A stretch of DNA of 64,000 bases from an uncultured Alistipes sp. (GTDB lineage Bacteria; Bacteroidota; Bacteroidia; Bacteroidales; Rikenellaceae). This document shows positions 24,244 to 47,098 of this stretch, piece by piece. Made by a program: the position numbers and the translations under genes. How positions within the stretch are numbered: the first letter of the stretch is position 1; each line of letters starts with the position of its first letter. The notes beneath the pieces were generated by a model. That model did no database searches. It saw only the letters and a list, made by a program, of their open reading frames with translations, and was not told the DNA's origin. Location of the stretch: positions 237,081-301,080 of the forward strand of contig CALURC010000008.1 of the NCBI GenBank assembly GCA_944323075.1, written 5' to 3'.

Positions 24244-24879
24244 ATGTGGGATGCATGGCATAGACTCGAACGAGTAATTAAATGGACCGGTTTATCGGTC
24301 AATTCGTTTGCGCTAAATATTGGTCTGAAGCGTAGTGAAAATCTGTATCAGATTAAGCGAGGAAATAACGGTATCAGTCGTGATTTGGCGGAATTGATCG
24401 CAACGAAATACCCTTCTGTCAGTAAGGGATGGCTATTGACCGGAGAAGGAAGTATGTTTATCGATGGTCATTCGTCGGATTCCGATTCAGAACGAGGAGT
24501 CCCATATTATGGAATGGATGCATTGACAGCTGTATGTTCTGATTCAATGCCCGATCCATTGTTCCGGATCAATTTGCCGATGTTTGCTGACGGAGATCTT
24601 GCTGCTTTGAATATTGGAACGGCAATGTATCCGGATATTCCGGCTGGAGCTATCGTGATTTTGAAAGAATGGGCTACCAGGAGTGTGATTCCTGGAGAGG
24701 TATATCTGATTGTAACGCAATATTTTAAGGGAATTAGGATCATTCGTCAGGAGCGGGATTCGGATCGACTTGTATTAATTGCCAGTAACTCCGAACAATA
24801 TGATCCTATTGTGCTGTCGCGTGACGAAATAGTCAAATTGTATATAGTGCAAGGAATTATTATAAAAAAAAATTTGTAA
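24244..24879 (+). CDS. XRE-type HTH regulator with a degenerate S24 peptidase-like domain
   Basis: A 211-residue regulator. The N-terminal 70 residues form a helix-turn-helix (SFALNIGLKRSENLYQIKRG, then GISRDLAELIATKYPSVSKGWLLTGEG) of the type seen in CI/LexA-like proteins. The C-terminal half matches the S24 fold, but where self-cleaving repressors have GDSM the sequence is GTAMYPDIPAGAIVI (Ala127 in place of the nucleophile), and the expected catalytic lysine position appears to be Arg165. It is therefore probably a non-cleaving repressor or sensor. It ends 6 bases before ribE, in the same operon. The last codons include a run of nine A. Confidence 0.75.
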   Translation: MWDAWHRLERVIKWTGLSVNSFALNIGLKRSENLYQIKRGNNGISRDLAELIATKYPSVSKGWLLTGEGSMFIDGHSSDSDSERGVPYYGMDALTAVCSDSMPDPLFRINLPMFADGDLAALNIGTAMYPDIPAGAIVILKEWATRSVIPGEVYLIVTQYFKGIRIIRQERDSDRLVLIASNSEQYDPIVLSRDEIVKLYIVQGIIIKKNL

Positions 24880-25479: not shown

Positions 25480-25553
25480 TCTAAAGTTTTATGGGCTATT
25501 TTGTTATTTAGACTACGCTGTTTGTTTTTGTTTATTGCTCGAGTCGATTTTTT

Positions 25554-25585
25554 TTTGGTTTTTCAATAAATTGTTTTTACTTTTA
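25554..25585 (+). promoter_or_regulatory. Promoter of the fibronectin-III lipoprotein
   Basis: TTTG (25554-25557), a 20-base spacer, and TACTTTTA (25578-25585), one mismatch from TAnnTTTG. It lies about 84 bases before the start codon. Confidence 0.5.
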
Positions 25586-45259: not shown

Positions 45260-47098
45260 CTATTCGATATCGAGATCAAGAGTTTGACGTAGTTTTGTCA
45301 ATAGAGGATTTTTTTCGGTAAGGTATTGCAACCGGTCTTCGGCCTTTATGGGTTTGAGTGGTTTTGTGCTTTCTGCGATTTCGACTTTGAAGTCGACCGC
45401 TAAGCGGACACCACTCAATTCGCAGAGCCGTTTTTGAATATCGGAGAGATGGTGTATAACCTCATCGTATAGCGATTCGTTAGGTACGTTGAGGTAGATT
45501 GTATAATCTTCGATACGAGCCTCTTCAAAGGCGGCCCCCAGTCGAGGCCGATCTTCAAGTAACTCTTGAGTGAGCTTCTGGTAGGCCTTTTTTAGTAACG
45601 CCTCGTTTTTTTCTTCTTTTTCTTCAGAAACGTTTCCCGTTGTGTTTGAAGTTATATCCGATGTGTTTGAGGTGCTTTCGTTTTTTTGTCTGTTATTCAG
45701 TAAAGAAAGAATCGACCGTCCGGAGAGCAGACTCTCTGTGTGTGCTTGGGGCGCTGCGGGTTGATTGTTATCGGGTACGGAAAGTGAGGCGGTACGAATT
45801 TTTTCCGTTTGGGTTCCGACGGTAGGGGTCGAGGGTACAGGGTCAAGCGTCTGAACTACGGTCGTTGCCGTACCACCTGTGGTCATTGGATTCTGAACCG
45901 TTGGTGGTACCTCCTTTTTGGGAGCAGTCTGTGCCGGGTTACGTGTCGGATTTTGCGCCGGGACAAGTTCGGGAAGTGAGGGGGTCAGGGTCTCCTCATT
46001 TTTTTTTTGACCGAGTCCGCAAAGTTTCATCAGACCCAGTTCTATGTGTAACCGTTGGTTGGTGGCTGTTCGTAGAGAAGCGTCCACTGAGGTCAACAAA
46101 TCAATACCCTCGAACAGCAACGGAACGGGACATTGCCCCGCTTGTGTCTTATAGCGTTCGGCAACACTGCCCGTAACCTCCAGAAGAGGTATCGTTTGTG
46201 GATTTTTGCACATTAGCAAATCGCGCAGATGTGCGTTCAGTCCACCGATAAACGTCTGTCCCGAGAAACCTTTTCGCAATACTTCGTCGAACAGCAGCAG
46301 CGTTGCGGTGTAATTGCCTTCAAGTATTCGGTCGGTTACGGTGAAGTAGGTATCGTAGTCGAGTACATTAAGATTTTCCGCTACTTTTTCGGCCGTCAGG
46401 TTCGAACCGCAGAAGGATACCACCTTGTCATACATTGAGAGGGCATCGCGCATTCCTCCGTCCGCTTTGCGGGCGATGATGTGGAGCGATTCGTCATCAT
46501 AAGTCACCTGCTCTTGTCCGGCGATGAATTTAAGATATGCGACCGTATCTTCTACCCGGATTCGGTTGAAATCATAAATCTGGCACCGAGAGAGTATTGT
46601 CGGTATGATTTTGTGTTTTTCGGTCGTGGCCAGGATGAAGATGGCGTGTGCGGGCGGCTCTTCGAGTGTCTTGAGGAAGGCATTGAAAGCTTGTACGGAA
46701 AGCATATGCACCTCGTCGATAATAAAGACGCTGTACTGTCCGATTTGAGGTGGGATACGTACCTGTTCGGTCAGACTACGGATGTCGTCAACGGAGTTAT
46801 TCGAGGCGGCGTCGAGTTCATGGATATTGAACGAGCGCCCTTCATTGAACGCCTTGCAGGATTCACATTCGTTGCATGCCTCTGCATCGGGACCGGGATT
46901 GAGGCAGTTGATCGCTTTGGCAAAAATGCGGGCGCAGGTCGTTTTACCAACACCTCGTGGTCCACAAAAGAGATAAGCATGAGCCAATTGGTGACGGCTG
47001 ATCGCATTTTTCAGTGTCGAAGTAATATGACCCTGTCCGACGACCGAAGCAAAGGTCGTCGGACGGTATTTTCGAGCTGATACGATAAAATTATCCAT
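45260..47098 (-). CDS. dnaX: DNA polymerase III subunit gamma/tau
   Basis: DnaX (612 residues) is the ATPase of the clamp loader. Walker A is GPRGVGKTT (46-54), the four zinc cysteines are Cys65, 75, 78 and 81, the Walker B-like DEVH motif is in FIIDEVHML, and the SRC sensor is in ILSRCQIYDF. Domains I-III end near residue 365; a Pro/Thr/Gln-rich linker (about 370-500) and a C-terminal tau-like domain follow. The coding strand has ten A in a row at codons 364-367, exactly at the end of domain III, with TGA available in the shifted frames: a likely programmed site for a short gamma form. Confidence 0.96.
   Translation of the reverse strand: MDNFIVSARKYRPTTFASVVGQGHITSTLKNAISRHQLAHAYLFCGPRGVGKTTCARIFAKAINCLNPGPDAEACNECESCKAFNEGRSFNIHELDAASNNSVDDIRSLTEQVRIPPQIGQYSVFIIDEVHMLSVQAFNAFLKTLEEPPAHAIFILATTEKHKIIPTILSRCQIYDFNRIRVEDTVAYLKFIAGQEQVTYDDESLHIIARKADGGMRDALSMYDKVVSFCGSNLTAEKVAENLNVLDYDTYFTVTDRILEGNYTATLLLFDEVLRKGFSGQTFIGGLNAHLRDLLMCKNPQTIPLLEVTGSVAERYKTQAGQCPVPLLFEGIDLLTSVDASLRTATNQRLHIELGLMKLCGLGQKKNEETLTPSLPELVPAQNPTRNPAQTAPKKEVPPTVQNPMTTGGTATTVVQTLDPVPSTPTVGTQTEKIRTASLSVPDNNQPAAPQAHTESLLSGRSILSLLNNRQKNESTSNTSDITSNTTGNVSEEKEEKNEALLKKAYQKLTQELLEDRPRLGAAFEEARIEDYTIYLNVPNESLYDEVIHHLSDIQKRLCELSGVRLAVDFKVEIAESTKPLKPIKAEDRLQYLTEKNPLLTKLRQTLDLDIE
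45999..46008 (-). promoter_or_regulatory. A10 run in dnaX, candidate slippage/frameshift site
   Basis: Read on the coding strand, codons 364-367 are CAA AAA AAA AAT, followed by GAG. One extra A (or a -1 ribosomal shift) gives CAA AAA AAA AAA TGA, a stop at once; one fewer A gives ATG AGG AGA CCC TGA, a stop after four codons. Thermus dnaX uses a similar A9 run for transcriptional slippage. Confidence 0.65.

Follow-up and report, generated by a model that had tools for sequence, protein, structure and literature searches.

A ten-adenine run as a probable programmed transcriptional slippage site in dnaX of an uncultured Alistipes sp. and its relatives

Introduction

In Escherichia coli, the short gamma product of dnaX is made by a -1 ribosomal frameshift on the heptamer A_AAA_AAG, with a Shine-Dalgarno (SD)-like stimulator and a stem-loop. 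In Thermus thermophilus, dnaX is reported to use transcriptional slippage on a run of nine A's (A9) (Larsen et al. 2000, as given in PMC1088944 and PMC5009743). Here we describe a run of ten A's (A10) in the dnaX gene of an uncultured Alistipes sp., carried on a stretch of 64,000 nucleotides that we call the window (assembly GCA_944323075.1, contig CALURC010000008.1, positions 237,081 to 301,080 of the forward strand). Comparison of this run with the corresponding region in related genomes led us to consider it, with a probability of about 0.82, a programmed transcriptional slippage site that would allow gamma to be made beside the full-length product, tau.

Poly-A runs are also reported for two-ORF (two open reading frame) dnaX genes, in which tau does not lie in the DNA frame (Antonov et al. 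2013, PMC3711429); A10 was present in 9 of 17 genes, and transcriptional realignment was proposed for dnaX, the main text naming Chlorobium and Chloroherpeton. A homopolymer frameshift reported in Blochmannia dnaX, possibly corrected by slippage, lies further downstream, in the tau part of the gene (PMC3017870). For a single site such as that in the window, the mechanism is one already known from Thermus, and the part worth following is its phylum-wide reach with repeated swapping of the DNA frame. Our literature search, outside of which lay most subscription journals and Supplementary Figure S3 of PMC3711429 (in which some of the species may appear), found no description of a Bacteroidota-wide site or of such frame swaps.

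Results

The original prediction, made from the letters of the window, had placed a ten-A run in codons 364-367 of dnaX, between the clamp-loader core and a Pro/Thr linker, and had proposed that the organism makes a gamma of about 366 residues by the Thermus-like mode. The coordinates and codons of the run were confirmed when read in the sequence (Table 1). Its placement was also borne out, as the match to TIGR02397 (dnaX_nterm) stopped at residue 360 and that to Pfam PF12169 (gamma/tau domain III) covered residues 234-366 (24.3 bits, slightly below the cut-off of 24.4), so that the run sits where the clamp loader gives way to the linker. Both of the stops that had been described, one immediately after the gain of an A and the other four codons on after the loss of an A, were found. 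A short product is therefore predicted as claimed, but its size would be 367 or 370 residues.

This arrangement resembles that reported for Thermus dnaX in its A homopolymer of at least nine past the clamp-loader core, in having tau in the DNA frame, and in the nearby stops in both other frames (here after 0 and 4 codons), with a gamma product that is predicted in our case. It differs in the length of the run (A9 in Thermus, A10 here), in belonging to another phylum, and in the swapping of the DNA frame among relatives. In the mechanism that we propose, RNA polymerase would gain or lose A's on the run and so produce a mixed pool of messenger RNAs. Those with ten A's (or 10 +/- 3) would be translated into full-length tau, while messages that have gained or lost one A would meet a TGA at once or four codons on, yielding a gamma of 367-370 residues that contains the clamp-loader domains. 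We infer that the slipping occurs at RNA polymerase and not at the ribosome; presumably the amounts of gamma produced are useful and it has a role of its own.

Table 1. Features of the dnaX locus, in coordinates of the window
Feature	Position	Strand	Basis
dnaX, DNA polymerase III tau/gamma; 612-codon ORF, full-length product (tau) 612 aa, 67.8 kDa	45260..47098	-	ORF; NCBIfam NF011531 and TIGR02397, Pfam PF13177 and PF22608, all above cut-off
Candidate A10 slippage run, codons 364-367, CAA AAA AAA AAT (T10 on the + strand)	45999..46008	-	Sequence; same place kept in relatives
TGA closing the frame with one A added at once (equivalent to a -1 ribosomal shift); predicted gamma 367 aa, 40.7 kDa	45996..45998	-	Sequence
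TGA closing the frame with one A lost, after ATG AGG AGA CCC; predicted gamma 370 aa, 41.1 kDa	45985..45987	-	Sequence
Clamp-loader core common to gamma and tau, residues 1-366	46001..47098	-	NCBIfam/Pfam matches
Part found in tau only, from codon 367 on: Pro/Thr-rich linker plus C-terminal region	45260..46000	-	ORF translation

We compared 291 dnaX loci, taken from genomes at the family, order, class and phylum levels, of which 290 were usable (the partial locus L380 was dropped); the names Rikenellaceae for the family and Bacteroidota for the phylum were inferred from named loci. In the family, 150 genomes were matched and 71 loci read, with short open frames chosen deliberately, and the order, class and phylum loci (131, 67 and 22, respectively) are biased to query-like ones, some having been picked among the matches listed. 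A runs were sought in a stretch of 315 nt, and in a narrower interval from -20 to +100 nt around the end of codon 366.

The run proved to be widely kept in these relatives. Whether related genomes lack it had been set beforehand as a check, and A10 was found in all nine genus genomes examined (the window's own included), in the same codon phase and with the other frames closed within 5 codons. In the family, A9 or longer was present in 65 of the 70 usable loci within the search stretch, including two (L385 and L386) in which an A9 lies 76 and 154 nt further on, possibly by chance. The five family loci without the run comprise L372, which is cut by a contig end, and L135, L388, L389 and L390. 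These last four, from family genomes G024, G025, G042 and G034, indicate that the run may be absent even inside the window's own family. Across all 290 loci, A9 or longer was present in 206 within the 315-nt stretch and A9-A12 in 204 within the narrower interval, the runs of L232 and L386 lying beyond +100 nt. The distribution of the longest A run was two-peaked: within the narrower interval 22 loci had A9, 143 had A10, 35 had A11 and 4 had A12, with none longer, and 86 had A0-A8. Same-size control windows reached A9 in 0 of 2323 cases in the core and in 9 of 1430 in the downstream tail. Of 80 named contigs retrieved on the basis of similarity, A9 or longer was present in the stretch searched in 45 and absent from it in 35; all 16 loci labelled Alistipes, Tidjanibacter or Rikenellaceae carried it. 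A second proposed check, whether the run is kept while the linker varies, gave the same answer, as the run was retained among relatives that vary in codon phase, flanks and linker.

The frames around the run were classified in 202 loci, four loci with the run having been left out due to a contig end or an early stop. Both non-tau frames were closed within 9 codons in 190 of these 202, compared to 20.1% of 3923 random control positions taken downstream in these genes. Tau was in the DNA frame in 142 loci, as it is in the window's own dnaX, whereas 48 loci need one additional A and 12 need one A fewer to reach it. The resulting 60 out-of-frame loci are like the reported two-ORF dnaX genes in having a poly-A run with tau out of frame, but differ from what is described for those genes in that in-frame, +1 A and -1 A forms occur here among close relatives. 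Tau was out of frame in 6 of the 45 named loci with the run, and in 6 of 70 family loci, the latter giving no prevalence figure because short open frames were chosen deliberately. The tau frame of the out-of-frame loci remained open for 171-275 codons past the run in the 59 of 60 whose end was seen.

Sequencing error was considered as a general cause of the out-of-frame genes and is unlikely, because tau was out of frame in single-contig genomes (G297, which needs -1, and G255, G310, G678, G493, G610 and G585, which need +1), and because the +1 state is common to the nine members examined of genus f142/g209. Single cases may nevertheless be errors, such as L146, in which the tau frame is also truncated by the end of the contig.

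The frame class was found to change between close relatives. Thirteen disjoint pairs whose cores are more than 80% identical fall into different frame classes, several having runs one A apart in length, for example L399 (A10, tau in frame) and L377 (A11, tau needs -1), L408 (A11, in frame) and L373 (A12, needs -1), and L260 (A11, in frame) and L302 (A10, needs +1), the last two being from the same genus. Pairs differing in frame class also carry substitutions near the run. On a FastTree tree of 286 core proteins, in which tree error raises the number of changes, the in/out state of the 202 loci required at least 30 changes by parsimony, compared to a mean of 51.4 and a minimum of 46 in 30 label shuffles, which argues for phylogenetic signal together with frequent flips; the three tau frames required 33 changes. 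It seems fairly probable to us that in much of the Bacteroidota the DNA frame of dnaX is nearly neutral, and that a run of A9-A12 held by selection would supply messages in all frames, with insertions or deletions of a single A switching the directly encoded subunit between tau and gamma.

Differences in tract length between close relatives could also be expected of a phase-variable contingency tract, at which slippage during DNA replication would toggle tau between cells. However, lengths are confined to 9-12 in the loci with the run, both alternative frames are closed, and a replicative clamp-loader subunit, which is essential in E. coli, would hardly be expected to be switched on and off. 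We consider this explanation to have next to no likelihood.

Discussion

Slippage by RNA polymerase is favored over a ribosomal shift because the modal length of the run is 10 whatever the codon phase. All three phases are represented among loci with at least A9, and A10 is found in 18 of 31 loci in phase 0, 95 of 129 in phase 1 and 27 of 42 in phase 2, although an in-frame A_AAA_AAA heptamer would need just 9, 8 and 7 A's in these phases. In addition, tau needs both +1 and -1 changes among relatives, so that a fixed -1 ribosomal shift would be insufficient, whereas slippage of RNA polymerase in both directions fits; the tau frame is unreachable by a -1 shift in 12 of the 202 loci, as well as in the named locus L074 and probably L051. 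Opposite shift directions among orthologues are given as a criterion for transcriptional realignment in PMC3711429, and both shift signs were seen among the dnaX orthologues here. The phase-independent length and the shifts of both signs suggest that the original prediction of a Thermus-like mode for gamma is most probably right.

An alternative source of the same gamma would be an E. coli-like -1 ribosomal frameshift, with the homopolymer (A_AAA_AAA) serving as slippery site. The window site holds the in-frame heptamers A_AAA_AAA and A_AAA_AAT (with no in-frame A_AAA_AAG), and a -1 shift there leads to TGA at once; across loci, the frame reached from tau by a -1 shift also closes tightest (median 1 codon, versus 4 for the other), and sliding of ribosomes on A-rich lysine codons has been reported (PMC4363877). 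However, the other frame is closed as well, and a strong SD-like signal such as accompanies the E. coli site was not evident. The longest upstream SD match at the window site is 3 nt. In the 202 loci, upstream SD-like matches of at least 5 nt were not enriched (5.0%, versus 8.6% in controls), nor were upstream duplexes of -6 kcal/mol or stronger (12.4% versus 11.4%), while the E. coli dnaX duplex reached -7.4 kcal/mol and beat all of its core control positions. This lack of enrichment of strong SD-like sites, unlike E. coli dnaX, also favors RNA polymerase slippage. The 60 nt downstream fold to -5.6 kcal/mol in the window and to -23.2 kcal/mol in E. coli, and no consensus fold was found in 7 genus or 63 family loci, the family alignment being gappy and its control empty too, which makes this folding test weak. 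Bacteroidia ribosomes reportedly do not recognise SD sequences (PMC9976891), and prfB frameshifting is reported to be weak or inefficient in F. johnsoniae (PMC12421855). Two lysine transfer RNAs (tRNAs; TTT and CTT) were found among 40 tRNA genes in the genome, as in T. thermophilus, where the presence of two has been suggested as a reason for the use of slippage (PMC5009743). This similarity further favors RNA polymerase slippage, the argument concerning AAG heptamers while the run here reads AAA. In sum, the gene and the outcome (gamma through a stop just past the shift site) are those of E. coli, and the long homopolymer, the lack of clear SD enrichment, the shifts of both signs and the two lysine tRNAs are not. 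We regard the ribosomal explanation as unlikely.

A number of observations weigh against polymerase slippage as the explanation, or against its importance. Ribosomes can slide on poly-A too, and could contribute a translational share of the shifting. In the dnaX cluster of PMC3711429, all 17 genes shift in one direction, which by that paper's own rule points to a ribosomal shift, although its authors favor slippage. Weaker upstream and downstream signals in our 202 loci also exceeded their controls: SD-like matches of at least 4 nt were slightly more common (32.7% versus 26.7%), the mean upstream duplex energy was stronger (-3.36 versus -2.30), and downstream folding with z < -2 was more common (13.4% versus 7.0%), this last test being weak because it misses the known E. 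coli stem-loop (z of -0.64). Within the gene itself, A10 arose at the site in 7413 of 20000 synonymous shuffles (37%) that kept the amino acids QKKN and the gene's own codon usage. Significance of the run from the window's gene alone was therefore rejected, as the run within this gene is weak evidence, and its significance comes from the comparison among relatives.

The shuffling result, together with the fact that AAA encodes lysine in any phase, would suit a run that is retained because the linker needs a lysine-rich patch, or by mere base composition, with no recoding. The relatives argue otherwise. In the cores of the 70 family loci 39% of lysine codons are AAA and 61% are AAG, yet near the boundary 75 of 79 Lys-Lys dicodons are AAAAAA and AAG occurs in only 4 (these loci being related and not independent). 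Likewise, none of the core control windows reached A9, both other frames close nearby, and the tau frame stays open far past the run in loci whose DNA frame is not that of tau. A patch or compositional origin is thus very unlikely.

The absence of the run from whole lineages also belongs among the points that count against programmed slippage. It was classed as lacking in 84 of the 290 loci, including L372, whose contig ends at the core; the 131 order-level loci account for 58 of the 84. The 35 named loci without it include every one labelled Bacteroidaceae, Phocaeicola, Prevotella or Prevotellaceae, every one labelled Segatella, Hallella, Paraprevotella, Alloprevotella, Barnesiella or Tannerellaceae, two of the three labelled Paludibacteraceae, and some labelled Bacteroidales only; the exceptions that carry the run are one metagenome-assembled genome labelled Bacteroides and one labelled Paludibacteraceae. 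Production of gamma by slippage on the run is therefore dispensable in these lineages. No substitute signal was found in them, as in-frame slippery heptamers occurred at about equal rates in the loci without the run (26 of 84) and in control windows from their cores (99 of 336). Gamma may be absent from these lineages, made by cleavage, as is reported for Caulobacter (PMC5009743), or made in another way. Presence or absence of the run required 39 changes by parsimony on the FastTree tree. In many of the dnaX genes without it (L054, L084, L090, L097 and similar), the linker stretch after the core resembles GRSPK..LK[PS][IL]F.

If the interpretation of polymerase slippage is true, the making of gamma beside tau in this way would be widespread on the scale of a phylum that is prominent in the gut and in the environment, and no peculiarity of Thermus, and it would explain dnaX genes that are annotated as truncated or frameshifted. 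The species pairs that differ in frame, some by one A, would be natural material for measuring the rate of slippage and the need for gamma, and the lineages without the run would provide a natural test of gamma's purpose.

Other homopolymers in the genome

The dnaX run is the sole A/T run of at least ten in the window, and one of four in its own assembly of 2.54 Mb, so that it stands out more at genome scale than within its gene. The three others fall in open frames of 242 codons (at codon 7), 228 codons (at codon 222) and 342 codons (at codon 42), the last directly preceding an ATG; these frames run from stop to stop, and the three runs are probably intergenic or at gene edges. A plasmid protein search and a two-row alignment made no addition to the findings. 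The longest A/T run in the assembly, of 15 bases, is that near the start of the 242-codon open frame (L111, G000:C5:78207-78221). The window also contains two nine-base homopolymers, A9 at 24864-24872 and T9 at 25548-25556 on the + strand.
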